From Maritimibacter sp. DP1N21-5 (lineage in GTDB: Bacteria > Pseudomonadota > Alphaproteobacteria > Rhodobacterales > Rhodobacteraceae): a DNA stretch of 64,000 bases. The notes beneath the pieces were generated by a model that saw only the letters and a program-made list of their open reading frames with translations, had not been told where the DNA came from and did not search any database. The number at the start of each line of letters is the position of its first letter. The first letter of the stretch is position 1. Of this stretch, positions 46,736 to 61,371 are shown in pieces. The position numbers and the translations under genes were made by a program. Location: positions 1-64,000 of the forward strand of contig NZ_JAHUZF010000001.1 of NCBI RefSeq assembly GCF_019218295.1. The letters are read 5' to 3'.

Positions 46736-46848
46736 TCCGGCGGATGGAGAAACCTATGTCGGATATGCGGGAAATAGACCAAGTCCGGGCCTGACCTCGG
46801 CGCCGGAACATGTCAGAAGTCCCGGGACTGAGGATGAAAGGGCATGAC

Positions 46849-47922
46849 ATGACCGCGACGACACGTTCCGACACACCCGCCACGAACGGGCCGCTTCAGT
46901 TTCCCTTCGACGAAATGCCCGCCTTCGGTGACGTGGTGGAAATCGCGGAAGGGATCCTGTGGATGCGCCTGCCGCTGCCCTATCTGCTCGATCACGTGAA
47001 CATCTATTTCATCCGCGACGGCGAGGGCTGGGCGATCATCGACACCGGCATTCGCACCGAAGAGGCAATGACAACGCTGGAGAATTTCCTTGCCGGACCG
47101 CTTGAGGGCGCGCCTGTCACGCGGGTGATAGTGACCCATGCACACCCGGATCACGTGGGGCTGGCCGGCTGGCTTTGCGAGAGGTTCGACGCACCGCTTC
47201 TCACCAGTTACTCGACCTACATGGGGGTGCGCGTGATTTCGCAGGGACGGTCGGACGCCGACACGCGCAATTCCTTCAGCTTCTATCGCAGCCACGGGAT
47301 GAGCGAGGAATTGGCGAGCCTCGTCGCCATTCGCGGCAACGAATACCTCAAGCACGTCTATCCCATGCCGCTTCAGTTCCTGCGTCTCGTGATGGCGGAT
47401 GTGTTGGAGATCGGCGGGCGCAGCTTTCGGGTGATGACGGGCGAGGGCCATGCGCAGGAGCAGGTGATGCTTTATTGCGAGGCCGAGAAGCTGTTCTTCG
47501 CAGCCGATCAGGTGATCGAACGCATCTCGCCCAACATCAGCGTCTTCGAGGGTGACCCCAACGGCGATCCCCTCGGGCATTACCTGCGCTCGCTCCGGCT
47601 GATCCGGTCCGAGATTCCCGACGACGTTCTGGTGCTCTCCGGTCATCGCCGGCCGTTCTACGGGCTCCATGCCCGCTGCACCGAGCTGGAAGCGCATCAC
47701 GAGGAGCGTTGCGATCTGATCCGCGAGGCCTGTGCCCGGCGGCCGCATACGGTGGCCGATCTGGTGCCGATCCTCTTCACGCGCAAGCTTGACCCGCACC
47801 AGATGAGCTTTGCCTTCACCGAGACGCTGGCCCATGTGAACCGGCTGGTGCGCCGGGGCGAGATCGAGAGCCGGAGCGAGGGCGACCGCGTGGTGCATGT
47901 GCCAGCCGGGGGCGGTCAGTAG
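46849..47922 (+). CDS. Metallo-beta-lactamase-fold hydrolase
   Basis: A 357-residue MBL-fold protein. The metal motif is THAHPDHVGLAGWL (HxHxDH), with further ligands in GEGHAQEQVMLY and in the FAADQVI segment; a C-terminal winged-helix-like extension (TVADLVPILF ... ETLAHVNRLVRRGEI) is typical of the LACTB2-like subgroup. Starts at 46810 and 46834 are also in frame; 46849 has AAAGGG at good distance. Its end overlaps the convergent glutamine-synthetase-like gene by seven bases. Confidence 0.85.
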   Translation: MTATTRSDTPATNGPLQFPFDEMPAFGDVVEIAEGILWMRLPLPYLLDHVNIYFIRDGEGWAIIDTGIRTEEAMTTLENFLAGPLEGAPVTRVIVTHAHPDHVGLAGWLCERFDAPLLTSYSTYMGVRVISQGRSDADTRNSFSFYRSHGMSEELASLVAIRGNEYLKHVYPMPLQFLRLVMADVLEIGGRSFRVMTGEGHAQEQVMLYCEAEKLFFAADQVIERISPNISVFEGDPNGDPLGHYLRSLRLIRSEIPDDVLVLSGHRRPFYGLHARCTELEAHHEERCDLIREACARRPHTVADLVPILFTRKLDPHQMSFAFTETLAHVNRLVRRGEIESRSEGDRVVHVPAGGGQ

Positions 47923-49373
47923 AGGTTGAAATACTCCGCCTGTTCCCACTCCGACACCGTCGCGAGGTAGCGTTGCCATTCGGCGCGTTTGAGGTGGGAG
48001 AGATAGGACTTCAGCCCGGGGCCAAGGGCGCGGACGAAAAGATCGCTGGTCTCGAAGGCCGTGATGGCGGCGACGAGGCTGTCGGGAAGCGGCGCGTTGT
48101 CGGCGTCATAGGGCGTGGCGGTGGGCGGGGGCGCGCTGCGCCCCTGCGTGATCCCGTCGAGCCCGGCGAGGATCTGCGAGGCGAGTGCGTAATAGGGGTT
48201 CGCCGTGGTGTCCGCGACCCGGTTCTCGATCCGTGAGGCGGGGTCGCCGGCCATGAGGAGGGCGCGCAGCATCGCGCCCCGGTTGTCGGTGCCCCACTGG
48301 ATACGGTTGGGCGCAAGCTGGAACTCGGAGAACCGCTTGTAGCTGTTCACGGTGGGATTGGTCAGGAGACAACAGGCCCCGGCATGGACGAGCAGCCCCG
48401 CGACCCAGGCGGAGGCGGTGTCGGTCAGTGTGCCGTCGGTGTCCGGTGTGAACACGTTGCGGCCATCCTTCAGGAGTGACTGGTGGATGTGCCAGCCGCT
48501 TGCCGCGGCATGGGGGACGCGGGGTTTGGCCATGAAGCTCGCGTGCAGGCCCTGCGCCTGGCAGACCTCTTTGACCATGGTGCGAAAAAGCACGAAACGG
48601 TCGGCCTGGGTCAGGGGGTCGGAGGCGTCGAAGGTGAACTCGAACTGGCTCGGCCCCATTTCGATTTCCATCGACCGGGGGGCGAGGCCCATCGCTTCGG
48701 CATGGCGGCGCAGCGTGTCGAGGAGCGGCTCGACCTGGCCATAGCGCGTGGCGGACAGATAGGACCAGCCCTGCGTCAGGTTGCGGGTCCGGATCGGTGC
48801 GGGCGGCATGGTGGAGGCGTCGTGGTCGAGGGACGTGTCCGTCACCTCGAAGACCTGAAATTCGACTTCGAGGCCCATGACGGACTGAAACCCTGCCTCC
48901 CCTAGAAGCGCGATGGACCGGCGCAGCACATTGCGCGGCGCGACCGACACGGGCGTTCCATCGGTGAAGGCGAGGTCGCACATCAGGATGCCGGAATGCG
49001 GCGCATAGGGGAGCGGAGTCAGCGCATCGGGATCAGGCACGAGAAGCACATCCGCCGATCCGGTGAGCGGGGTTCCGTCGAGCGTAAGATCGCCGTTCCA
49101 GATGTCGAAGACCGTCCGGTTCGCCGTGTCCTTCAGGAGCACGGTCGACGGCACGGAAAGGCCGTTCTCGAAGACCGAGGACAGCGTGCGCGCGGCAACC
49201 GTCTTGCCACGAAGGAGCCCGTGCTGGTCGGGAAAGAGGACGCGGATCGTTTCGAGCCCGGCGGCTGCCACCTCGGACAAAAGGCCTGCGGCTCGGGTGA
49301 TCTGCGCCTCGGTCAAAAGGCCCCGGCGCGCGAGTTTGCCTGCGCGCAGATGGGCCGCGGCGTCGTCTTTCAT
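47916..49373 (-). CDS. Glutamine synthetase-like ligase (probable gamma-glutamyl-amine synthetase type)
   Basis: A 485-residue protein with the glutamine synthetase fold: N-terminal beta-grasp (IRVLFPDQHGLLRGKTV), MGLEVEFQVFEV metal-binding segment, EMGPSQFEFTF, the SGWHIHQSLL ATP/metal region, NSYKRFSEFQLAPNRIQWG and RIENRVADTTANPYYALASQILAG. It differs from housekeeping GlnA and resembles enzymes that gamma-glutamylate amines (PuuA, IpuC, TdnQ/AtdA1 types). Its ATG overlaps the stop of the Rieske catalytic gene, so the two are coupled. Together they suggest that an amine is glutamylated before or with oxygenation. Confidence 0.85.
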   Translation of the reverse strand: MKDDAAAHLRAGKLARRGLLTEAQITRAAGLLSEVAAAGLETIRVLFPDQHGLLRGKTVAARTLSSVFENGLSVPSTVLLKDTANRTVFDIWNGDLTLDGTPLTGSADVLLVPDPDALTPLPYAPHSGILMCDLAFTDGTPVSVAPRNVLRRSIALLGEAGFQSVMGLEVEFQVFEVTDTSLDHDASTMPPAPIRTRNLTQGWSYLSATRYGQVEPLLDTLRRHAEAMGLAPRSMEIEMGPSQFEFTFDASDPLTQADRFVLFRTMVKEVCQAQGLHASFMAKPRVPHAAASGWHIHQSLLKDGRNVFTPDTDGTLTDTASAWVAGLLVHAGACCLLTNPTVNSYKRFSEFQLAPNRIQWGTDNRGAMLRALLMAGDPASRIENRVADTTANPYYALASQILAGLDGITQGRSAPPPTATPYDADNAPLPDSLVAAITAFETSDLFVRALGPGLKSYLSHLKRAEWQRYLATVSEWEQAEYFNLY

Positions 49374-50584
49374 ACGGTCGCATCCCAGGGGCAGGTGGAG
49401 CGGCGGGCGAGGTCGGCCTGATGGCTCGCCGTCTCCCAGTCGGCGGTGTCCCCGATGGCGTCGTTCGACAGCGGGCCCCGGATCATCGCGGCGTCGGCGT
49501 CCTGCATCGGGAGACCCGCTTCGCCGGTCTCGAGCGCGTCCATCGCACGGCGCAGGAGCCGGCGATAGCGGATGATCGCCACGTCCGATCGCCCGAGGTG
49601 TTCCTGCGTCCGGTCCTGGATCGCGCCCATGCCTTCGACTGCCCATTGGTCGTGCACGTTGATATCGAGCCCCATGCCCGTATAGGTCAGCCGCGCCTGT
49701 TCCTCGGGGTCGTATTGATAGTCGTTCGCCCGGTTCTTGAGCGGCGCATAATCCGGCAGGCGATGTTCCTTGAGACGCTGTTCGCGCATCAGGTCCTTGT
49801 TCACCGGCTTGTCGAAGCTCGTGAAGACGGTGAACCAATATGTGGTCACGTCATCCACCGGGACGTGCCACTGGGTGATGGTCATTTCCCGCGACATGGG
49901 AATGCAGATCGCGTCGGGGAAGATCTGGTTCGTCACGCGGACATGGGTGCGCCCGTCCTCCATATGACGGAGCGCGGTGATCTTCAGCCCGTAGTCGGTG
50001 TCATCCACCTGAATGTCCGGGCGGGGGTAATCGCGCAGGAGCTTGGTCATCGGAATTTCGGTCGTGCCCGCCTTGTCCCGGAACTGCCGGCCATAGCCTT
50101 CGGACGGGTCCTCGTCCTCGAGGAAGCGGTGCAGGAACGAGGCATGGGCCGGGTCGATACCGATTTCGAGCGCCTGGAGCCAATTGCATTCCCACAGGCC
50201 CTTGAAGGCGAAGACATGGGTCTCGGGCGCGCGGAAACAGTCGAAGTTCGGGAAGGGCGGGGGCGCGCCTTCGCCGAGATAGGCCCAGACCGCACCGGCG
50301 CGGATGTCCACCGGATAGGTGGGGCCCCCTTCGTCGATTTCGATCTCGTCCGAGGCGGGATAATGCGTGGGCGGCTCGTCCGGCGCGACAAAGCGCGTGG
50401 CGAGGTGCGGCTGGTCGCCTTGGACAAGCACCAGCCGTTCCCCCATGAGATTGACAGGCACCAAGGGCCCGTGCGCCAGTTCGTCGACAAGCGCCGCGGG
50501 CTGCCAGTACTGGCGCAGCACGGCGCCCGCCGGGGTTCCGGGGCCGATGCGGGTCAGGCGGTCGTTCAGGGCGGCGCTGATCAT
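49370..50584 (-). CDS. Rieske oxygenase catalytic-domain protein without the [2Fe-2S] ligands
   Basis: A 404-residue protein like phthalate-dioxygenase/LigX-type oxygenase alpha subunits. Its N-terminus is normal (LTRIGPGTPAGAVLRQYWQPAAL), but after VNLMGERLVLVQGD the sequence goes via about 30 unrelated residues to PVDIRAGAVWAYLG; the CxH and CxxH cluster motifs are absent. The mononuclear iron site is intact: D144-x2-H147-x4-H152 after ECNWLQALE. The neighbouring gene 50581-50979 encodes exactly the missing type of Rieske domain and overlaps it by four bases. It probably works as the catalytic half of a two-protein oxygenase. Confidence 0.8.
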   Translation of the reverse strand: MISAALNDRLTRIGPGTPAGAVLRQYWQPAALVDELAHGPLVPVNLMGERLVLVQGDQPHLATRFVAPDEPPTHYPASDEIEIDEGGPTYPVDIRAGAVWAYLGEGAPPPFPNFDCFRAPETHVFAFKGLWECNWLQALEIGIDPAHASFLHRFLEDEDPSEGYGRQFRDKAGTTEIPMTKLLRDYPRPDIQVDDTDYGLKITALRHMEDGRTHVRVTNQIFPDAICIPMSREMTITQWHVPVDDVTTYWFTVFTSFDKPVNKDLMREQRLKEHRLPDYAPLKNRANDYQYDPEEQARLTYTGMGLDINVHDQWAVEGMGAIQDRTQEHLGRSDVAIIRYRRLLRRAMDALETGEAGLPMQDADAAMIRGPLSNDAIGDTADWETASHQADLARRSTCPWDATV

Positions 50585-50979
50585 GGGCGCTCCTCCGTCG
50601 AAGGGTTATCGGCCGGGGCGGTTGCTGCAAGGTCCGCGCCGATCAGCGCAAAGATCTCGCCGTCGATTTCGCGGACCGGGATCATCGGCACCCGGATCTG
50701 TTCATGCATGCGCGACCCTTCCGGTTCGGCGGGCTGTTCGACGCATTGGCCGGTGCGGTCGAAATGCCAGCCGTGGAACGGGCAGCGCAGTCCGTTGTCT
50801 TCGAGCCGACCATAGCACAGGTCGGCGCCCCGGTGCGGACAGTTCCGCCCGATGAGGCCGAGCGCGCCGGTGTTGTCGCGAAACAGAACGAGCCGCTTGC
50901 CCGCGAGCGAGACGGGGATCAGGGGCCGGGGCCGGTCAAGGTCGGCGCTGGCAGCGATGCGGACCCAGTCTTCGGACAT
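50581..50979 (-). CDS. Stand-alone oxygenase-type Rieske domain protein
   Basis: A 132-residue protein with cluster ligands C47, H49, C66 and H69 (NCPHRGADLCYGRLEDNGLRCPFHGWHFD). The GLRCPFHGWHFDRTGQC wording and the downstream IRVPMIPVREIDGEIFALIG match the N-terminal domain of ring-hydroxylating oxygenases more than free Rieske ferredoxins. It has AGGAGGG ten bases before the ATG and is the first gene of the operon, followed by the ligand-less catalytic protein and the glutamine-synthetase-like gene. An IclR gene is divergent. Confidence 0.85.
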   Translation of the reverse strand: MSEDWVRIAASADLDRPRPLIPVSLAGKRLVLFRDNTGALGLIGRNCPHRGADLCYGRLEDNGLRCPFHGWHFDRTGQCVEQPAEPEGSRMHEQIRVPMIPVREIDGEIFALIGADLAATAPADNPSTEERP

Positions 50980-51020: not shown

Positions 51021-51076
51021 GAACAATCATTATATGAACTGTGCCACCGGCTCTCCGGCCTGTCAAAGGGGAAGCG

Positions 51077-51829
51077 ATGACCGAGAAAACGTTCGCCGCG
51101 ACACTTGCCAAGGGGCTCACGGTGCTCGGCTGTTTCGAGGCGCAGTCCGGTCCCCTGACCTTGCCCGCGCTCGGCGTCGCGACGGGGTTCGACCGGGCCA
51201 CGCTGCGCCGTCTGGTGCTGACGCTCGAGGCGGAAGGGTTTCTGGTGCGCGACGGCCGGGGGTTCCGGCTCGCGCCGCGTGTGCTGACGCTTGGCGGGGG
51301 GTATCTGACCGGGCTGGACGTGGGCCGGCGGGTGCAGCCCGTCCTGCGCCACGCCGCCGATGCGCTGAACCTCGAGGTCGCGCTCGCGACGCTGGATCGG
51401 GGCCGGGCGGTCTATGTGGACAGGGCCGCGCCTGCGAGTGCGCGGGTCACGCTCGGCCTGTCGGTCGGGAGCACCTTGCCGCTGCTCCACACGGCGGTGG
51501 GACGGATGCTTCTGGCACGGGCGGGATCGGGGGCCATGGAGACGGCGCTGTCGGCACCGATACCGCGCCATACGGAGGCGACTGTCACCGACGCGACGAC
51601 GCTGCGCGAGGAGATTGTCTCCGTGGGAATACAGGAGTACGCGGTCGTCTCCGGCGAGTTCGAGGCGGGCGCGGCAGGGGTCGCGGTGCCGGTCGGGGCC
51701 CTGGGCGATGTGCCCTTCACACTGTCGACCACCGCCTCGACCAACAGGCTGAGCGACCCGGAGACGCTGGATCAGGTGCTCGATGTCCTGCGTCAGGCCA
51801 GCCTGTCCATCGGGCGCATCGGGGCGTGA
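51077..51829 (+). CDS. IclR-family transcription regulator
   Basis: A 250-residue IclR-type regulator: N-terminal winged helix (AKGLTVLGCFEAQSGPLTLPALGVATGFDRATLRRLVLTLEAEGFL) and C-terminal effector domain (LPLLHTAVGRMLLA, ... EYAVVSGEFEAGAAGVAVPV). It is divergent from the split Rieske/glutamine-synthetase operon and probably controls it in response to the substrate. The ATG at 51077 has AAAGGGGAAG upstream. Confidence 0.87.
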   Translation: MTEKTFAATLAKGLTVLGCFEAQSGPLTLPALGVATGFDRATLRRLVLTLEAEGFLVRDGRGFRLAPRVLTLGGGYLTGLDVGRRVQPVLRHAADALNLEVALATLDRGRAVYVDRAAPASARVTLGLSVGSTLPLLHTAVGRMLLARAGSGAMETALSAPIPRHTEATVTDATTLREEIVSVGIQEYAVVSGEFEAGAAGVAVPVGALGDVPFTLSTTASTNRLSDPETLDQVLDVLRQASLSIGRIGA

Positions 51830-52131: not shown

Positions 52132-52635
52132 TCAGTCGTCGAGCCAGGAAGCGCCGATCGACACGCGGTCGGCGAGCTTGTTGTGAAGCGTCGCGAGCAC
52201 CCGGTAGAAGGTTTCGAGGTCGTCCTTCGGGATGCCTTCGACCACCTCTTCGTTGAGGGGCATCGACAAGGCACGGATCGAGGCGATCATCTCGTGGCCC
52301 TTGGAGGTCAGGGTGATCGCGTTCATTCGCCGGTCGCCGGGCACGCGCTTGCGTTCGAGACAGCCCTGTTTTTCCAGTGACTTCACCAGTTTGGCGATGG
52401 CGGATTTCTTCATCGCGAGGTTTTCGGCCAGATCGTTCTGCGAGATGCCAGGATTCACCCAGATCAGGCTCAGGATCCCGATCGACCCGGTTTCGAGGTT
52501 GAGGGGCCCCCGGATCGACGCGCCGACCGAGCGCAGCATGGAATGAAGGTTGCGGATCATGAAGGGCATGTCCTGCGCCAAAGGGCCCAGGATGATCCGT
52601 GACTTGCCGGTTTTCTGTTGGTCGTTCACATTCAT
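52132..52635 (-). CDS. MarR-family transcription regulator
   Basis: A 167-residue MarR-type regulator with the winged-helix segment WVNPGISQNDLAENLAMKKSAIAKLVKSLEKQGCLERKRVPGDRRMNAITLTSKG. It is divergent from the dehydratase-like/CoA-transferase/TRAP/P450 run and probably represses it, releasing it on binding an aromatic or acid ligand. The start is uncertain: ATG 52635 has AAGGGG directly adjacent, which is too close, and an upstream frame remains open to 52692. Confidence 0.85.
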   Translation of the reverse strand: MNVNDQQKTGKSRIILGPLAQDMPFMIRNLHSMLRSVGASIRGPLNLETGSIGILSLIWVNPGISQNDLAENLAMKKSAIAKLVKSLEKQGCLERKRVPGDRRMNAITLTSKGHEMIASIRALSMPLNEEVVEGIPKDDLETFYRVLATLHNKLADRVSIGASWLDD

Positions 52636-52697
52636 CCCCTTCGCGCGAACAAGGTCCACAATTCGCGCAAACAATGCAAGACGTTGACGCAAACATG

Positions 52698-52716
52698 TGG
52701 TTCATTTAGTGAACCA
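52698..52716. promoter_or_regulatory. Inverted repeat, candidate MarR operator
   Basis: TGGTTCA-TTTAG-TGAACCA has perfect 7-bp arms with a five-base spacer. It lies between the MarR gene and the divergent dehydratase-like gene, 18 bases before the GGGAGGA-led start at 52735. MarR dimers usually bind such repeats. Confidence 0.6.
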
Positions 52717-52734
52717 AGTAGCAGGGAGGACAGG

Positions 52735-53664
52735 ATGCGAACAGGTGTTCTCGGCTTTGGCGTGCCTTACGGTGTGCTCGCGTCCGTCGGGCTCGAGCCG
52801 GTCGACGTCACGCTGCGGCAGGCGCGGGCAGGGACGGCGGCCGACCGCTATATCGAGTGTTTCATGGACCCATTCGCGGTGTCGGTTCTGCGCGGACTGG
52901 CGGCGGGCGATTTCGACGACCTCGGCGCGCTGATCTTTCTGCGGGAAAGCCCCGGCGCGATGATCGCCTGCCAATATGCCTTTGAACTGGCGCGGCGGGG
53001 GGTGATCCCGAAAAGCGCGCCGGTGCCCGTGATGCTGAACATCCTGCCCGCGGATCATCCGGCGGCGGACCGGTTCAACCGGGCCGAACTGGCGCGGCTG
53101 GTGGAGGTGCTGACGGCTTTGGGCTGGGTGCCGGACGAAGGCGTGAAGGCTCCGTCGGAGCGCTTCGACGCGCTGCTCGCGGCGCAAGCGGAGGGGGTCG
53201 TCTCCGGGGCGGATGCCTTCGACATCCGGGCAGGACGGCGCGATGAGCCACGGCCCCATCGGGCGCAGGGTCCTCGGCTCGCCCTTTTGGGGGCGCCGTT
53301 TGGCAACTCGGTGCTTCACGCCGCGCTGGACCGGATCGGGCACCTCGTGCTCGACCAGCAGGCGCTGGATCAGGCCTGTGCCGCGCGAGGCCGGGGGTTG
53401 GACGCCGCCCTTACGGCGCAGGCGGCGAACCCCTTCGCCGCGCGTCAGCCGAAGCCCCTCTATCTGCCGGGCATCGCGGCGGCATTGACAGAACATCGGA
53501 TCGACAGGGTCGTCTGGCAGGTGGACCCCCATGACGATCTCTGGGGCTGGCTCATGCCGCAGGTGCGCGACCTCTGCGCGGGGCAGGGCGTGGGCTTTGC
53601 CGATCTGGGCTTTCTGCCACGATGGCCGACGCCCGGCGACATCGTGATCGGGAAGGGCGTCTGA
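52735..53664 (+). CDS. 2-hydroxyacyl-CoA dehydratase-family (HGD-D-like) protein, smaller subunit
   Basis: A 309-residue protein that I place in the HGD-D/benzoyl-CoA-reductase-subunit family by pattern: an opening GVLGFGVPYGVL, a Cys in YIECFMDPFAVSVL where family members have their first cluster Cys, then DDLGALIFLRES where the second Cys would be expected, and a C-terminal RIDRVVWQVDPHDDLWGWL in place of the third. Only one of the expected three cluster ligands seems kept. Its stop overlaps the start of the larger partner by one base (TGATG). Confidence 0.6.
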   Translation: MRTGVLGFGVPYGVLASVGLEPVDVTLRQARAGTAADRYIECFMDPFAVSVLRGLAAGDFDDLGALIFLRESPGAMIACQYAFELARRGVIPKSAPVPVMLNILPADHPAADRFNRAELARLVEVLTALGWVPDEGVKAPSERFDALLAAQAEGVVSGADAFDIRAGRRDEPRPHRAQGPRLALLGAPFGNSVLHAALDRIGHLVLDQQALDQACAARGRGLDAALTAQAANPFAARQPKPLYLPGIAAALTEHRIDRVVWQVDPHDDLWGWLMPQVRDLCAGQGVGFADLGFLPRWPTPGDIVIGKGV

Positions 53665-54929
53665 TGGCCTACGAACCGTTGTCCGTTTCCGCCGAGGCGA
53701 TGGGATACCAGCGCGTCTGGACCAAATCCCTGCGGTCGCAGATCGAAGGCGGGGCGAAGTTCGCCTTCGTCAACGCCGACACTCCGCATGAGATTTTCCA
53801 TGCCATGGGCATGCCGGTCGTCGTCAATCAATGGTGGTCATCGGTCATCGCGGCCAAGCAGTTGTCGACCTATACGCTCGATCGCGGGGCTGAGATGGGG
53901 TTTCACGACAGCCTCGCAAAATACTCGGCGATGGGCGTGATCTCCGCGCTGGACGGCGACCCGGAGCATCAGCCCTGGGGCGGTCTGCCCGCCCCCGCGA
54001 TCCTCTGCGCGCGGCAATCGTCGGACGACCAGCAACGCCTGTTCCAGATGTATGCCGACAAGGTGGGCGCGCGGCTTGCGCTGCTGCATGCCCCGGCGGC
54101 GGCGGAGAACCTGAATGACTGGTGGGTGCGGGCGCGCGACGATTGGGAAATGCTCTACGGCACCGCGCGGCTCGACCTGATGCAGGCGCAGATCGTGGAG
54201 TTGATCGGGCAGGTGGAGGAGATCACGGGGCGGGATTTCGACCACGCGGGCTTCGGCGCCTACATGGAGCGGATCGAACAGCAGGAGCTGATCTTCGAGG
54301 ACGCGAGCCGGATGATCGCGGGGGCCGAACGGATGCCTGTGCGGATCGGCGAGCAGATCCCCAACGTGATGATCCCGCAGTGGCACCGGGGGTCGGACTG
54401 GGCAGTGGCCCATGCCGAACGGTTCCGCGACGCGGTGGGCGAACGCATCGCCGCCGGGCGCGCGGTGGTCGAGGACGAGCGCGTCCGCATGATGTGGATC
54501 GGCGCGGGGCTGTGGTTCGACACGCGCTTCTACACCGCCTTCGAAGAAGACTTCGGCGCGGTCTTTGCCTGGTCGATGTATCTGCCCTTCGCCGCCGATG
54601 GCTATATCCGCCGCGCCAAGGGCGATTACCTGCGGGCTCTCGCCGCGCGCGTCGTGACCATGAACGAACAGCTCCATCAGGCGCCCTGGGCCAATGCCTG
54701 GCTCGTCAAACAGGCGCGGGACTACCGGATCGACCTTGCCGTGGTGCTGGTGCCCGAGGCGGACCGGCAGTCGGGATATGCGACCAACTTCATCACCGAG
54801 GACCTTCGGGCGGCCGGGGTCGAAGTGGTGGAGATCCACGCCGACATGGTCGATGCACGCAAATGGAACGGGGCACGGGCCAAGGCCGATGTGGCGGAGG
54901 CCATCCGACGTCTGCAGCCTGCGACATAA
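53664..54929 (+). CDS. 2-hydroxyacyl-CoA dehydratase-family (HGD-D) protein, larger subunit
   Basis: A 421-residue HGD-D family protein. The family layout is visible: KFAFVNADTPHEIFHAMGMPVV, a central helical part with WEMLYGTARLDLMQAQIVELIGQ, and the C-terminal YRIDLAVVLVPEADRQSG ... GVEVVEIHADMVDARKW. In active dehydratases the last region carries a cluster Cys near an RSC motif; here it is DRQSG. The other expected Cys positions also look replaced, apart from ILCARQSSDDQ. No ATP-dependent activator gene is in the window. An unusual, possibly cluster-less paralog. Confidence 0.72.
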   Translation: MAYEPLSVSAEAMGYQRVWTKSLRSQIEGGAKFAFVNADTPHEIFHAMGMPVVVNQWWSSVIAAKQLSTYTLDRGAEMGFHDSLAKYSAMGVISALDGDPEHQPWGGLPAPAILCARQSSDDQQRLFQMYADKVGARLALLHAPAAAENLNDWWVRARDDWEMLYGTARLDLMQAQIVELIGQVEEITGRDFDHAGFGAYMERIEQQELIFEDASRMIAGAERMPVRIGEQIPNVMIPQWHRGSDWAVAHAERFRDAVGERIAAGRAVVEDERVRMMWIGAGLWFDTRFYTAFEEDFGAVFAWSMYLPFAADGYIRRAKGDYLRALAARVVTMNEQLHQAPWANAWLVKQARDYRIDLAVVLVPEADRQSGYATNFITEDLRAAGVEVVEIHADMVDARKWNGARAKADVAEAIRRLQPAT

Positions 54930-54984: not shown

Positions 54985-56118
54985 ATGACGCGCGCGCTTG
55001 AAGGCTTCAGGGTCGTCGATTTCAGTCACGTGGTGGCCGGACCGCTGGCGACGCATTTCCTCGCCCTCAACGGCGCGCGGGTCATCAAGGTCGAGGCGCC
55101 GACCGGGGATCTTCTGCGCAACTACGCGCCGTCGCGCGATCAATGGGGCATGGCGCCCGCGTTCCGGGGCATCAACATCGGCAAGGACAGCGTGTCCCTC
55201 GACCTGAAGACCGACGCGGGTCTGGCCACCGCGAAGCGCTTGATGGCCGAGGCCGATATTGTTGTCGAAAACTTCCGGCCCGGCGTGATGGAGCGGTTGG
55301 GGCTGGGATACGAGGCTGCGCGGACGCTCAATCCCCGGATCATCTATTGTTCGGTCTCGGGCTTTGGCCAGACCGGCGAGATGCGCGACGTGGCCGCCAT
55401 CGACCAGATCGTTCAGAGCCTGTCGGGCCTCATGCGGCTGTCGGGGGAAGAGGGCGATCCCGCCATGCGGATCGGCTTTCCCATCGTGGACACCTATTCC
55501 GGGCTCCTCGCGGCCTTCGCGATCCAGACGGCGGTCATCCAGCGCGAACGCGGGCTGGTCGAGAGCCAGAACGTCGATGTCGCGATGCTCGACGCGACGC
55601 TCGTGATGCTGGCGTCAGTGGTCAATCCGCTGCTCATGGCGGGACAGAAACACATGCGCACCGGCAACCGTGGCTTCAGCCGTGCCCCGACCGCCGACAC
55701 CTTCGCCTGTCGCACGGGCGAGCTGACCGTCGGTGCGGTCGAGGATCATCACGTGGCGAAGATGCTGAAGGTCCTGGGTCTGACCGACCTGCTCGACGAT
55801 CCGCGTTTCGCAACGCGGATCGACCGGCTGAAGAACGCGGACGCCATGCGCGCGAAACTGGCCGAGTCATTCTCGACGCGCGACGCGCTCGATTGGGAAC
55901 ATGCGTTCCGGGCCGAGGGCCTGTCGGCAGCGAGGGTTATGGACGTGGAGGAGGCGGTGGCGATGCCGCATCTCGCGGAGCGGGGCCTGTTTCTGGAGGT
56001 GGCGGGCGAGCGGGTTCTGAACGCCGGCTTCCGTTTGGCGACCGGCAGTCCGGGAACCGACCGGGGCGCGCCCGAACTGGGGGCCCAGAACGAAAAGTTT
56101 CACAAGGCGGCGACCTGA
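54985..56118 (+). CDS. CaiB/BaiF family III CoA-transferase
   Basis: A 377-residue family III CoA-transferase. Seen: FRVVDFSHVVAGPLATHFLALNGARVIKVE, VVENFRPGVMERLGLGYEAA, and the catalytic Asp in AAIDQIVQSLSGLM. It has a GGGAGGA ribosome site. Its location directly after two HGD-D proteins resembles the FldA-FldB-FldC arrangement of anaerobes, in which the transferase loads CoA onto the dehydratase substrate. The gap before it (54930-54984) is AT-rich and may hold a promoter. Confidence 0.87.
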   Translation: MTRALEGFRVVDFSHVVAGPLATHFLALNGARVIKVEAPTGDLLRNYAPSRDQWGMAPAFRGINIGKDSVSLDLKTDAGLATAKRLMAEADIVVENFRPGVMERLGLGYEAARTLNPRIIYCSVSGFGQTGEMRDVAAIDQIVQSLSGLMRLSGEEGDPAMRIGFPIVDTYSGLLAAFAIQTAVIQRERGLVESQNVDVAMLDATLVMLASVVNPLLMAGQKHMRTGNRGFSRAPTADTFACRTGELTVGAVEDHHVAKMLKVLGLTDLLDDPRFATRIDRLKNADAMRAKLAESFSTRDALDWEHAFRAEGLSAARVMDVEEAVAMPHLAERGLFLEVAGERVLNAGFRLATGSPGTDRGAPELGAQNEKFHKAAT

Positions 56119-56154: not shown

Positions 56155-57168
56155 ATGAAGGACCTAATCAAGACCACCTTGCTTGGCGCGCTCATGGCCA
56201 CGGCCGCGAGCGCCGCCTTTGCGGCCACCGAACTGCGCCTGTCGGTGGAAACGCCGCCCGGCCATGTGCGCAACCTCGCGGCCGAAAGATGGGCCGAGCT
56301 GATCGAGGAGAAATCCGGCGGCGAATTGACCGTCGAAGTGTTCCCGGCGGCACAGCTTTACAAATCCGCCGATGCGATCCGCGCGCTCGCCTCGGGCGCG
56401 CTCGACATGTCCATTCAGGCCAACGTGACGATGAGCCAGTTCGAGCCGAACCTGTCGTTCTCGATCCTGCCCGTCTTCTTCGGGCGCACGGCGGAGGAAG
56501 CGAACGCGATCCTTTCCGGTCCGATCGGTGACGAACTGGGTGAGATGATGGCGAAGAAGGGCATCAACGTGCCCGGCCCGGCCTTTCTCTTCGCGCCGCA
56601 GCACACCGCCTTTACCACCGACACTCCGGTCACGAGCTATGCCGATCTCTCCGGGCTGAAGCTCGCCACACCGCCGTCGCCGGTGGTCGTGGGCGTGCTC
56701 AAGGAAATGGGCGGCGCACCGCAGGCGGCGGCACGCTCGGAGATTCCGCTGATGCTGAGCCAGGGCCAGATCGACGGCATGGGTGGCGTGACCGAGCTTA
56801 CCATCACGGGCGGCAAGCTCTGGGAATCCGGCATTCAGAACGCCTTCGCCGACAATGCGGGCTGGGGCTATTACATGCCCGTGGTGTCGCAGCGCACGAT
56901 GGACAAGCTCTCGGAGGAGGAACAGGCCATCGTCCGTGACAGCTGGGCGGAAATCGTCGGCTGGGCGGCGGACCATGCGGCCGAGGAACTGGCGCAGGCC
57001 CGGGCGGTTCTGGCGGAGAACGGCGTCACCGTCGTGGACGCCGACCCGGCGGAGGTCGCGACCAAACGCGAAGAGCTTCTGGGTCTTCAGAACCAGATCG
57101 TCACGGAAGGGGGCATGGACGCCGCTTTCATCGAGCGTGTGACCGCCGCACTCGACGGCAACAGCTGA
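56155..57168 (+). CDS. dctP: TRAP transporter substrate-binding protein (DctP type)
   Basis: A 337-residue periplasmic binding protein. Residues 1-23 form a signal peptide ending in AAFA. The mature part begins TELRLSVETPPGHVRNLAAERWAELIEEKSGGELTVEVFPAAQLY, the standard DctP opening, and the conserved Arg/Pro-containing LKLATPPSPVVVGVLKEMGG segment follows. It binds an organic acid for the DctQM partners downstream. Confidence 0.92.
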   Translation: MKDLIKTTLLGALMATAASAAFAATELRLSVETPPGHVRNLAAERWAELIEEKSGGELTVEVFPAAQLYKSADAIRALASGALDMSIQANVTMSQFEPNLSFSILPVFFGRTAEEANAILSGPIGDELGEMMAKKGINVPGPAFLFAPQHTAFTTDTPVTSYADLSGLKLATPPSPVVVGVLKEMGGAPQAAARSEIPLMLSQGQIDGMGGVTELTITGGKLWESGIQNAFADNAGWGYYMPVVSQRTMDKLSEEEQAIVRDSWAEIVGWAADHAAEELAQARAVLAENGVTVVDADPAEVATKREELLGLQNQIVTEGGMDAAFIERVTAALDGNS

Positions 57169-57220
57169 CACCCGACGCGCTGCTCTGTTTCGGCGGGGCA
57201 GCGCCAACCACAGGTTTGCC

Positions 57221-57736
57221 ATGATCCCCCGAATCTTGAAGATCTGGTCTCGGGTCGAGGCCGTGCTGATCGGGCTTCTGCTCATCATCTCGCTGGCCAT
57301 CTTCCTGGGCGGCGGCGCGCTGCGCGTGTTCGCGCCGTCGCTCGCCATCGACTGGGCGACCGAGGTCTCGCTCTACTTCATCATCTGGGCCACCACGATT
57401 GCCGGGGCGGCCATCGTCGCGGAAGGGCGGCACATCCACACCGAGGTCTTCGTGGCCACGCTGGCCCCGGGTCCGCGCCGGGTGCTGGCCTGGGCGATGA
57501 CGATCCTGTCCATCGGCTTTGTCGCCGTCATGCTGATCTACGGCTGGCAGGCCTTCGACTTCGCGCTTCTGCTCGATGAACGGTCAGGCTCCTCGCTGCG
57601 CACGCCGCAGGGCTATGCGGTCTTCCTCGCGCTGCCTGTCGGCATGGCGCTCATGCTGATCCGGATCGCCCTGATGCTCCTGAACGGCCAGCAGCCGTTC
57701 GCGCATGAAACCGAATACCCGAGCCGCGGAGAATAA
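57221..57736 (+). CDS. dctQ: TRAP transporter small permease (DctQ type)
   Basis: A 171-residue membrane protein with four predicted helices (about residues 13-35, 48-66, 88-107 and 130-150). The segment WATEVSLYFIIWATTIAGAAIVAEGRHIHTEVF is typical for DctQ. It precedes the large permease by four bases. Confidence 0.88.
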   Translation: MIPRILKIWSRVEAVLIGLLLIISLAIFLGGGALRVFAPSLAIDWATEVSLYFIIWATTIAGAAIVAEGRHIHTEVFVATLAPGPRRVLAWAMTILSIGFVAVMLIYGWQAFDFALLLDERSGSSLRTPQGYAVFLALPVGMALMLIRIALMLLNGQQPFAHETEYPSRGE

Positions 57737-57740
57737 CGAC

Positions 57741-59018
57741 ATGGACGCTTTCCTCGGCCTCTTGGGGATGCTTGTGCTCATGGCAATGGGCGCCCCGATC
57801 TTCGTTGCGCTCGGCGCCACGGCGATGCTGATGATCTTTCTTGAAGGCAGGCCGCTCCTGGATGCCGCCGCGCATACGGTTTCGGGGCTGAACTCGGCCA
57901 CCTTTCTTGCGGTGCCGTTCTTCGTGCTCGCCGCGACCTTCATGCAGAAGGGCGGGATCGCGCGGATCATCATCGACGCGGCGGAAACCTGGGTTGGGCA
58001 TTTCCGGGGCGGGCTCGCGCTTGTCGCCGTGATCGCCACGACGCTCTTCGCCGCGATCTCGGGGTCGTCCGTCGTCACTGCGATGGCGATGGGGACCTTC
58101 CTGATCCCGGCGATGGTCGCGCGCAACTACGACCGACCCTTCGCGCTGGGTCTGGTGGGCGCGTCCGGTACGATGGGGATCCTGATCCCGCCGTCGCTGT
58201 CGATGATCCTCTACGGCCTCATCTCGGAACAAAGCGTGCCGCGCCTGTTTATCGCGGGCGTCATTCCGGGGCTCATTCAGGCGCTGCTGCTGGGGGCCTG
58301 GGTCGTCTTCTATTCGCGGCGAAAGGGCTATGCCTCGGGCGTGCGGGCGACGCGGGAGGAGTTCATCCGCAAGAACCTTCGCGCGGTGCCCGCCATTGCG
58401 ATCCCGGCCTTCGTCTTCATCGGGATCTACACCGGCTATACCACCGTCACGGAAAGCGCCGGTGTCGCCGCCATCGCGAGCGTGCTGATCGCGGTCTTCG
58501 TCTATCGCGAGGTCAGCCTGCGCGAGATCATGTCGATGACGGCCGAAGGGATGAAGTCGGCTTCGGCCGTGACCTTCATCGTCATGTTCGCGCTGCTCTT
58601 CGCGCATTGGATCACCGGCTCGGGCGTGCCGACGAAGATCGTGGAGTTTGCCATCGAGGCGGACCTGAAGCCCTGGCAGTTCCTGCTTGCGCTCAACATC
58701 CTGATGCTGATCCTCGGCATGTTCCTCGATGCCATCGCCGTCATGCTGATCGTGACGCCCATCGTGCTGCCGGTGCTCGCGCCCTTGGGGATCGACCCGG
58801 TTCACTTCGGGATCGTCCTGATCGTGAACATGGAGATCGCCTTCCTCACCCCGCCGATCGGTCTGAACCTCTTCGTCCTGTCGTCCATCGCCAAGGCGCC
58901 CATGTCCGAGGCGATGCGCGGCATGGTCCCCTTCGTCCTGATCATGGCGGCGTTTCTCATCCTTATTACCTATGTTCCAGAGATCACTCTATGGCTACCG
59001 AACAGATTGATGAACTGA
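57741..59018 (+). CDS. dctM: TRAP transporter large permease (DctM type)
   Basis: A 425-residue polytopic permease with the DctM signature segments VPFFVLAATFMQKGGIARIIIDAAE, FAAISGSSVVTAMAMG and GASGTMGILIPPSLSMILYG, and a C-terminal ILGMFLDAIAVMLIVTPIVLPVL. Start ATG 57741 is chosen because the upstream frame overlaps dctQ. The first P450 gene begins 28 bases before its stop. Confidence 0.92.
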   Translation: MDAFLGLLGMLVLMAMGAPIFVALGATAMLMIFLEGRPLLDAAAHTVSGLNSATFLAVPFFVLAATFMQKGGIARIIIDAAETWVGHFRGGLALVAVIATTLFAAISGSSVVTAMAMGTFLIPAMVARNYDRPFALGLVGASGTMGILIPPSLSMILYGLISEQSVPRLFIAGVIPGLIQALLLGAWVVFYSRRKGYASGVRATREEFIRKNLRAVPAIAIPAFVFIGIYTGYTTVTESAGVAAIASVLIAVFVYREVSLREIMSMTAEGMKSASAVTFIVMFALLFAHWITGSGVPTKIVEFAIEADLKPWQFLLALNILMLILGMFLDAIAVMLIVTPIVLPVLAPLGIDPVHFGIVLIVNMEIAFLTPPIGLNLFVLSSIAKAPMSEAMRGMVPFVLIMAAFLILITYVPEITLWLPNRLMN

Positions 59019-60196
59019 GGTCCGTGTGGGATCCCCACGATCCCGAAACCATCGAGACCTATCCCGCCGTCTGGCGCGCGCTGCGCGAAAGCCACCCGGT
59101 CGCATGGAGCGACAAGTGGGGCGGATTCTTTACCGTCATGCGATATGACGACATCCTGACGGTCGAGAAGGACCACGAGACCTTCACCGCGACGAAGCTG
59201 TCCATCGTGCCGGCCTCGCCCAAGCTGGGTCTGCCGCGGCTGCCCCTGCAAAAGGACCCGCCGGATAGCGAACGGTATCGCAAGGCGATGAACCCCTCGT
59301 TCAAGGCGAACAAGGTGCGCACCTTCGAGCCGCAGCTGTGCGCGCTGGTGGATCGGCTGTTCGAGGACGCCAAGGCGAGGGACGCGGCCAACGTGGATTT
59401 CCCGGTCCAGATCGGCGAGCCCATGAGCCAGGGCTCTCTGGGTCTTCTGGTTGGGTTCGACACGGAGGAGTCGCTCGAGATTGGGCGGCTGTCGGCGACC
59501 TATGTCCATGCCATTCAGGACCGCGACATGGGCACCGCCGCGCGGATGTCGAAGGGGGTCGATGCCTTCGCGATCAAGCTCGCGCAAAGCCGTCTGGCCG
59601 AGCCGCGCGATCCCGAGAGCGACATGGTCTCCTCGATCCTCGCGCATCCGGCCAAGGGCGAGCCCTTCACCGAGACCGAGCTTGCGGGGATGGTGCGGCT
59701 GCTGCTCGTCGGCGGGCATATCGCGTCACGCTGCCTGATGAATTCGCTCGCGTTCCATCTGGCGACGCACCCCGATCACGCGCAGCTTCTGCGCGACGAA
59801 CCCGAGGTTGGGGCGACCTTCCGCGATGAAATCCTGCGCTTCTACCCGGCGAACCAGAGCCTTGCCCGCGTCGCCGCGAAGGACACGGTTCTGGGCGGCA
59901 CCTTCATCAAGAAGGGCACGCCGGTCGCGATGAACTATGGCTCGGCCAACCGCGACCCGCGCGTCTTCGACGACCCCGAGACGTTCGACCCGCGCCGCAG
60001 CCCGAACCGGCACCTGACCTTCGGCTATTCGACCCACATGTGCATGGGGCAGGCGATGGCCAAGCTTCAACTCGAAGTGATGACCGACGCGCTACTTGCC
60101 CAGCCGGGCCTGACCATCGTCGGCACGCCGACCTGGGGGCGCTGGACGGAGTTCGGCATCAACACCCTGACACTCGACCTGCGAGGTAAGGCATGA
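58991..60196 (+). CDS. Cytochrome P450 with altered I-helix
   Basis: A 401-residue soluble bacterial P450. The heme-binding loop is FGYSTHMCMGQ with Cys about 351; the K-helix ExxR is EILR in RDEILRFYP; NRDPRVFDDPETFDPRR is the usual PERF-like part. The I-helix segment reads LLVGGHIASRC where most P450s have AGHETT or similar, so both the acid and the Thr used for oxygen activation appear replaced by Ile and Ala. No ferredoxin or ferredoxin reductase is adjacent. Overlaps dctM by 28 bases and the next P450 by four. Confidence 0.88.
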   Translation: MATEQIDELRSVWDPHDPETIETYPAVWRALRESHPVAWSDKWGGFFTVMRYDDILTVEKDHETFTATKLSIVPASPKLGLPRLPLQKDPPDSERYRKAMNPSFKANKVRTFEPQLCALVDRLFEDAKARDAANVDFPVQIGEPMSQGSLGLLVGFDTEESLEIGRLSATYVHAIQDRDMGTAARMSKGVDAFAIKLAQSRLAEPRDPESDMVSSILAHPAKGEPFTETELAGMVRLLLVGGHIASRCLMNSLAFHLATHPDHAQLLRDEPEVGATFRDEILRFYPANQSLARVAAKDTVLGGTFIKKGTPVAMNYGSANRDPRVFDDPETFDPRRSPNRHLTFGYSTHMCMGQAMAKLQLEVMTDALLAQPGLTIVGTPTWGRWTEFGINTLTLDLRGKA

Positions 60197-61371
60197 CGCA
60201 CAAGGCAGATTTCACCGTCCCCGAAACCGAGGATTTCGACAGTCCACACGCACTCTTCGCCGAGTTGCGCAGCCACTGCCCGGTGGCCTGGTCGGACGAC
60301 ATGGGCGGGTTCTGGGCGGTGACGAAACATGCCGACGCGCGGCAGGTTCTCGAGGACTGGGAGATGTTCACGACGACCGTGCAGAACGTCGTGCCGCGTG
60401 TCGCCACGACCCAGCGCCGACCGCCCCTGCACCTCGATCCGCCACACAACAAGCCCTATCGCAACGCGATCCAGCGGCACCTCACGCCCGGCAAGCTTGC
60501 CACGTGGGAAGCCGATCTGGAGCGGATGGTGGCCCGGTTTCTCGATCCCTGGATCGAGGCGGGTGGTGGCGACATCTGCAAGGACTTTTCCTTCCACCTG
60601 CCCATCGCCATGCTCGCACAGTTCTTCAACCTTGCGCCCGACAAGGCCGAATTGATCCGCGAAGTCGGCGCCGAGTTCAACATGGCCCTGCAACGGATGG
60701 ACTTCGACCTGCTGCGCGCCAAGTCGGACGAACTTTATGACATCGCCGCCGACCTGATCGCGGACCGCCACGCCAATCCGCGCGACCCGGAAACCGATCC
60801 GACGGCGAGCCTTCTGGCCGTGCGGGTCGAGGGCGAGCCGTTGCCCGACGACATGATCCTTGGCGCGCTTCGACAGTTCCTTCTGGTGGGGATCATCGCG
60901 CCCACGACATTCATCGGGTCGATGGCGGTGCACCTTGCGCGGCACCCGGAGCATCACGCGGAGCTGACCGCGACCCCGGATCTCGTGCCCGATGCGCTCG
61001 AAGAGCTTCTGCGCCTTTACACGCCCTATCGCGGGTTTGCCCGCACGGCGCGGGAGGACACCGAGATCGGGGGGTGCCCGATTGCCAAGGGCGACCCCGT
61101 GGCGATCGTCTTTACCTCGGCCAACCGGGACGCGGAGGTGTTTCCCGACCCCGACAGCTACCGGCTCGACCGCGAGGCGCGCGATCTCCTGACCTTCGGG
61201 CGCGGCCCGCACATGTGCCCCGGCGCACCGCTGGCACGGGTCCTCTTGCGCGAGACGTTGAAGCAGATCACGCAGAAGACCAAACGCCTGGTGCAGGTAG
61301 GCGAGATCGAGATGACCAACTGGCCGGAATACGGGCCGCTCAGCGTGTCCTTCGAGGTGGTGAAACGGTAG
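60193..61371 (+). CDS. Cytochrome P450
   Basis: A 392-residue P450. Heme loop FGRGPHMCPGAPLA with Cys about 342; ExxR in DALEELLRLYTPYRG; NRDAEVFPDPDSYRLDR. The I-helix is LLVGIIAPTTFIGS, which keeps Thr but has Pro before it. Its ATG overlaps the previous P450 stop (ATGA), so the pair is translated together. Clearly diverged from its neighbour, so not a recent duplication. The pair sits at the end of the MarR-flanked, TRAP-linked operon. Confidence 0.9.
   Translation: MTHKADFTVPETEDFDSPHALFAELRSHCPVAWSDDMGGFWAVTKHADARQVLEDWEMFTTTVQNVVPRVATTQRRPPLHLDPPHNKPYRNAIQRHLTPGKLATWEADLERMVARFLDPWIEAGGGDICKDFSFHLPIAMLAQFFNLAPDKAELIREVGAEFNMALQRMDFDLLRAKSDELYDIAADLIADRHANPRDPETDPTASLLAVRVEGEPLPDDMILGALRQFLLVGIIAPTTFIGSMAVHLARHPEHHAELTATPDLVPDALEELLRLYTPYRGFARTAREDTEIGGCPIAKGDPVAIVFTSANRDAEVFPDPDSYRLDREARDLLTFGRGPHMCPGAPLARVLLRETLKQITQKTKRLVQVGEIEMTNWPEYGPLSVSFEVVKR

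Follow-up and report, generated by a model that had tools for sequence, protein, structure and literature searches.

In Rieske oxygenases, each alpha subunit holds both metal centres, the Rieske cluster and the catalytic iron, according to the excerpted text of a 2025 review (PMC12445004). The isophthalate dioxygenase of Comamonas testosteroni KF1 is an alpha3 trimer with a cluster-iron distance of 12.5 A between neighbouring subunits; its iron ligands are H177, H182, and D337, its bridging residue is D174, R234 holds the substrate carboxylate, and H257 is a second carboxylate-binding residue (PMC12445078, as excerpted). Here we describe a relative of this enzyme in Maritimibacter sp. DP1N21-5, found in a stretch of 64,000 nucleotides (contig NZ_JAHUZF010000001.1, positions 1 to 64,000; the whole stretch is referred to as the window), in which the cluster domain and the catalytic domain are encoded by two overlapping genes. 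From sequence comparison, we consider it likely that the two proteins make up a working Rieske oxygenase, in which the usual intersubunit electron path is rebuilt from separate chains.

Several described systems share one feature or another with this locus. A separate small Rieske protein is also found in three-component Rieske oxygenases (e.g., carbazole dioxygenase), but their alpha subunit carries a Rieske cluster of its own as well, whereas the alpha protein of the window lacks one. In the aniline and 1-naphthylamine dioxygenase systems (AtdA and NpaA), a glutamine-synthetase-like enzyme is encoded together with a Rieske oxygenase, as it is here; however, the excerpted accounts of those systems describe a two-component Rieske-type dioxygenase (AtdA3A4 and the Npa homologues) with amidotransferase-like and reductase genes, while the oxygenase of the window is of the LigXa type and split across its cluster domain. 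The isophthalate (PDB 9ina) and phthalate (7fjl) dioxygenases of strain KF1 resemble our catalytic protein in fold, iron ligands, bridging Asp, and carboxylate-binding Arg, but they have the cluster in the same chain, and their excerpts mention no third oxygenase protein.

A precedent for a Rieske oxygenase made as two polypeptides comes from Micromonas pusilla: each chain of its chlorophyllide a oxygenase reportedly carries one metal centre, a finding attributed to Kunugi et al. (2013). For this two-chain enzyme, a trimer of dimers was suggested, and activity was obtained with the reductase VanB (PMC9615114, as excerpted). It differs from the present case in coming from a eukaryotic alga and serving chlorophyll b synthesis, and the same excerpt mentions no third protein. 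An earlier note on the window, made from its sequence alone, had called the two-protein version a new architecture. The conserved two-protein form is real, but the novelty was overstated because the Micromonas enzyme already consists of two polypeptides. The note passed over the third protein family that goes with the split form and its absence from this genome, as well as the operon's glutamine-synthetase-like gene and the outer Rieske parts that remain in alpha. Neither a bacterial split Rieske oxygenase nor the third protein discussed below was among the matches listed in our search of open-licence PMC literature, which does not by itself show their absence.

The Rieske protein and the catalytic protein

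Three reverse-strand genes of the window are chained end to start by ATGA overlaps. The stand-alone Rieske protein gene (50581-50979, ATG at 50979 and TGA ending at 50581) encodes 132 amino acids (aa), and is followed by the gene for a 404-aa catalytic (alpha) protein of the LigXa/phthalate-dioxygenase family (49370-50584, ATG at 50584 and TGA ending at 49370). The Rieske stop and the alpha start share the four bases at 50581-50584, and a second ATGA overlap joins the stop of the alpha gene to the start of a glutamine-synthetase-like gene (47916-49373, 485 aa). Both oxygenase reading frames, and the 4-base overlap between them, are as the earlier note had placed them.

The note had also assigned an oxygenase-style Rieske domain to the upstream gene, and the database matches agree. 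The 132-aa protein matches the Pfam Rieske family (PF00355) at 72.9 bits, and its top PDB hit is the Rieske portion of an oxygenase (7fhr, 99 bits); oxygenases lead its list of structure matches at 99, 75, and 70 bits, with the best ferredoxins at about 30 bits. In alignment it retains the whole Rieske domain, including the [2Fe-2S] ligand loops C47-P-H49 and C66-P-F-H69 (50773-50841, reverse strand).

The alpha protein, by contrast with its fused relatives, lacks the cluster. It matches Pfam LigXa_C (PF19301) at 104.7 bits; no match to a Rieske model was obtained in the Pfam scan, and the CxH...CxxH motif is absent from the chain, just as the earlier note had read it. Its closest solved structures are 9ina and 7fjl, and it aligns to 9ina over residues 5-55 and 90-368, skipping the cluster region. 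Alignment with fused relatives shows that alpha retains the outer portions of the Rieske domain on either side. Its first cluster loop is unchanged in length but has no ligands, and the second is missing within a deletion of about 30 residues. The note had described this segment as replaced by about 30 unrelated residues; these correspond to about residues 61-88 (50321-50404, reverse strand), a remodelled remnant at the position of both cluster loops of the fused relatives.

The iron site was likewise recognized correctly. By alignment to 9ina, D144 is the bridging Asp and H147 and H152 are iron ligands (residues 133-155; 50120-50188, reverse strand), to which we add D312 as the third ligand, corresponding to D337 of isophthalate dioxygenase (49649-49651, reverse strand). 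In the same sequence alignment, R216 corresponds to R234, the carboxylate-binding Arg, and Q238 stands in place of H257, a further difference from the KF1 enzyme. D144, H147, H152, D312, and R216 are invariant in the best 120 of 7349 alpha homologues (E 0.001, each sequence representing one 90% cluster, the window's own included), and D144, H147, and H152 are also invariant in the 28 split and 64 fused rows of our own alignment. An AlphaFold2 (AF2) model of alpha (pLDDT 85.7, pTM 0.88) matches 9ina at a TM-score of 0.80.

Spread and probable origin of the split form

The split is a conserved two-protein arrangement spread over many genera, in isolates as well as metagenome-assembled genomes (MAGs). 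The Rieske motif is present in none of the 120 best of 7349 alpha homologues, the window's own included. A script sorted 95 loci by form: 80 belong to named genomes and are the best of 571 relatives, 5 are further loci, 9 are regions, and one is the window itself. L081-L085 are not counted, being either the window's own genome or shortened versions of L095-L098. Of the 95, 29 are split, the window included, and 66 are fused. The earlier note had proposed looking for the gene pair in other genomes, and the Rieske gene lies directly upstream of alpha in all 29 split loci; in 21 of them the two genes share the 4-base overlap, and in 8 they stand 8-66 bases apart. Two pairs within the 28 other split loci are near-identical (L008/L009 and L011/L102). 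Homologues with intact motifs, which the note thought might expose the window's copy as a simple deletion, do exist, as the 66 fused loci demonstrate; this copy, however, is no isolated deletion but a member of a whole clade.

At the level of the order, with at most 4 candidates scored in each genome, 43 of 390 genomes gave an alpha match at E <= 1e-60. Six of these matches are contiguous over residues 1-404 and were called split, and 37 start at residue 76-89 and were called fused-like, a call that rests on the extent of the match rather than on motif-by-motif inspection. None of the 43 genomes has a second alpha match at this threshold among the candidates scored. At the level of the class, 31 of 385 genomes match, the match being contiguous only in the window's own genome and partial in 2 of the 30 others. 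The window's genus contains both forms, the fused one in three genomes and the split one in four others. The window's own genome holds one LigXa_C match, in a search that covered this oxygenase family. Separately, in a same-genus relative (G004; L085/L095) the alpha gene contains one in-frame stop, so that the open frame ends near residue 355, and is either a pseudogene or a sequencing error. Three loci do not enter the alpha tree or the counts of residues and identities: L034 and L043, whose start had been misplaced by script, and L095, because of its stop inside alpha. L095 was retained in the Rieske tree and in the counts of protein X below.

A tree of the catalytic domains puts all 28 split rows on one side of a single branch (SH-aLRT 99), adjoining fused Mameliella sequences. 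Similarly, the Rieske tree separates 29 split rows from the fused ones (SH-aLRT 97) and places the window's Rieske protein among its split counterparts; this protein is up to 67% identical to the fused Rieske domains of this family. Recruitment of the Rieske gene from another family was ruled out on that identity. We infer that the split form arose once, from a one-chain ancestor. Since the small protein has an entire Rieske domain and alpha still has the outer portions of one, a simple cut fits less well than a duplication of the Rieske-coding stretch with complementary loss afterwards, which looks to be the simplest history.

Conservation is uneven over the parts of the Rieske domain. The cluster loops of the stand-alone protein average 86-94% identity between split and fused forms, compared with 86-93% among fused forms, whereas the Rieske base is only 37-50% identical between split and fused, compared with 70-78% among fused forms. 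In alpha, the loop remnant falls to a mean identity of 10-19% between split and fused, and the retained base parts stand at 58-61%, compared with 78-79% among fused forms. The pattern in the small protein indicates that the cluster-bearing tip, predicted to serve in docking, is conserved, and that the base, which would otherwise pack in the chain, has been freed to change. Against four same-genus relatives, the ratio of nonsynonymous to synonymous substitution rates (dN/dS) lies at 0.05-0.22 in the Rieske gene and at 0.09-0.15 in alpha, values that are rough given a dS of 0.75-2.6 and that point to purifying selection on both genes.

Protein X, the proposed electron route, and alternatives

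Downstream of the split alpha genes, we found a gene for an orphan family of about 150-230 aa, tentatively referred to as X, with 261 homologues at E <= 0.001. It is located downstream of alpha in L001-L018, L029, and L095-L103 (e.g., L002:8721-9413, from Roseobacter sp. GAI101). An earlier count by sequence clusters gave 18 loci, and a profile search then detected X in every one of the 28 split loci outside the window but in none of the 66 fused ones; the profile was built partly from 13 of these split loci, which leaves the count in fused loci unaffected. X is also absent from the matches in 385 class-level genomes (at most 8 candidates scored in each), where the window's own is the only known split genome. 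Family profiles gave no assignment: Pfam returned nothing for three X sequences and NCBIfam one chance match for 13, and Pfam on 108 X at E <= 10 returned five chance families, PF03479 not among them, in a search where HMMER filters drop most matches above about 0.1. A search of 31 relatives with PF03479 yielded one match, below the cut-off. Compared with PPC/DUF296 domain chains, X has 10-12% identity and Foldseek TM-scores of about 0.24-0.43, a faint hint of a PPC/DUF296-like fold. Its role is probably in assembly or scaffolding.

In the window, the glutamine-synthetase-like gene overlaps a convergent metallo-beta-lactamase-fold gene (46810-47922) by 7 bases, at 47916-47922. Same-genus relatives carry X at this place, and X therefore appears to have been lost from the operon of the window.

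We propose that a reductase would hand electrons to the stand-alone Rieske protein, whose cluster-bearing tip would dock on alpha at the site that the neighbouring subunit's Rieske tip occupies in an ordinary alpha3 enzyme. D144 would then bridge the cluster to the iron held by H147, H152, and D312, while the emptied Rieske base would stay in alpha as a structural remnant, and X, as a dedicated third protein, would take part in most carriers. Such a rebuilt path is suggested because the cluster loops are conserved as in one-chain enzymes while the base has diverged. Either a stable complex or transient docking could serve such a path.

It is on this last point that the most serious alternative differs. 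The Rieske protein may instead be a mobile ferredoxin, which docks transiently and gives one electron to the iron with no stable heteromer, as Rieske ferredoxins dock in three-component oxygenases. Its small size would suit such a role, as would the divergence of the base that packs in-chain in fused enzymes, and oxygenase-ferredoxin complexes of carbazole dioxygenase are among the structure matches of the alpha model. We nevertheless regard this as unlikely: by sequence the protein belongs with the Rieske domains of oxygenases, scoring far higher against 7fhr than against the best ferredoxins, its cluster tip is constrained as in the fused enzymes, and the gene overlap in 21 of 29 loci suggests coupled translation and a fixed stoichiometry.

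More radically, the loss of about 30 residues with a cluster loop, the failure to find X in the window's genome, and the internal stop in the G004 alpha could be taken to mean that alpha is a degenerate or regulatory pseudo-oxygenase, that the Rieske protein is a leftover fragment, and that oxygenase chemistry is gone. With the iron ligands and bridging Asp invariant in the best 120 of 7349 homologues, the low dN/dS over both genes, and one clade across many genera, this seems quite improbable. Still harder to credit is an artefact of assembly or annotation, or a deletion private to this copy with an unrelated Rieske gene beside it; fused homologues with intact motifs are indeed common, but the same arrangement recurs in isolates and MAGs of many genera, and the Rieske protein clusters with those of the other split loci and is up to 67% identical to the fused domains of the family. 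Private deletion and assembly error were rejected on the motif count of 0/120, the 29 split loci, and the one-clade tree.

The working two-protein oxygenase that we favour has several observations to contend with. The nesting of the split form within the fused one depends on the rooting of the alpha tree, the outgroup of which is one very long row, and the Rieske tree has few columns and carries a long-branch warning. The 16 residues past the second cluster loop are somewhat less conserved between split and fused (76% identical) than among fused forms (84%), and residues 149-172 of alpha are poorly modelled (pLDDT < 50). As to an electron source, no reductase was found among the eight neighbouring window genes scanned, and a motif screen for a reductase gene beside the pair found a single candidate, in L029 only; 13 Fer2 matches lie elsewhere in the window's genome. 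Finally, X was not found in that genome with all 43 candidates scored, nor in the window, where a profile search with filters off gave a best E of 0.41 and nothing at the operon. The copy in the window, being without X, may work differently or be losing function.

Neighbouring genes, substrate, and significance

The best PDB match of the glutamine-synthetase-like protein is NpaA1 (8wwu/8wwv/8x6z) at 321 bits, followed by the next at 184 bits; NpaA1 glutamylates aromatic amines, according to excerpted literature. Divergent from the operon is the gene of an IclR-type regulator (51041-51829, forward strand), whose nearest NCBIfam model is PcaR/PcaU/PobR, matched below its cut-off, and a gene of this IclR cluster is present in 35 of 81 neighbourhoods. 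The regulator possibly controls the operon. Because of the NpaA1-like protein, the PcaR-like regulator, and the conserved R216, the substrate is probably a carboxylate-bearing aromatic compound, and it may possibly be a gamma-glutamylated amine produced by the operon's own glutamine-synthetase-like enzyme. The homarine pathway was dropped as a substrate idea, as the one paper listed that contains both 'homarine' and 'Rieske' was judged unrelated.

Five of the split loci (L008, L009, L011, L014, and L016) have a glutamine-synthetase-like gene together with a tautomerase-like gene on the opposite strand (CHMI by Pfam in L009), and TRAP transporter-like genes, identified by eye, adjoin L008, L009, L011, and L014. 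These neighbours are possible clues to the substrate. In the window, a gene without family assignment (52618-53664) precedes a 2-hydroxyglutaryl-CoA dehydratase D-component-like gene (53622-54929), which is followed by a family III CoA-transferase gene (54985-56118). The TRAP transporter genes DctP and DctM lie at 56155-59018, and a cytochrome P450 gene follows them (60193-61371).

A bacterial split form makes the one-chain rule of Rieske oxygenases testable, in that one can exchange, titrate, or mutate the cluster donor and leave the active site untouched, and the fused orthologues within the same genus, that of Maritimibacter harenae (L041) among them, provide natural controls. X, a family without a name, accompanies the split form across genomes and probably represents either a new subunit of the oxygenase or an assembly factor. 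It is conceivable, and we put this forward tentatively, that the split loci represent a three-protein bacterial class, in which the cluster sits on a carrier apart from the catalytic trimer, the trimer holds no cluster itself, and X, as a dedicated PPC-like scaffold, takes the place of the missing covalent bond between them. The lineage of the window would then have gone one stage beyond this and would do without the scaffold. If so, this would be a class of Rieske oxygenases in which electron delivery is loaded and docked apart from catalysis.

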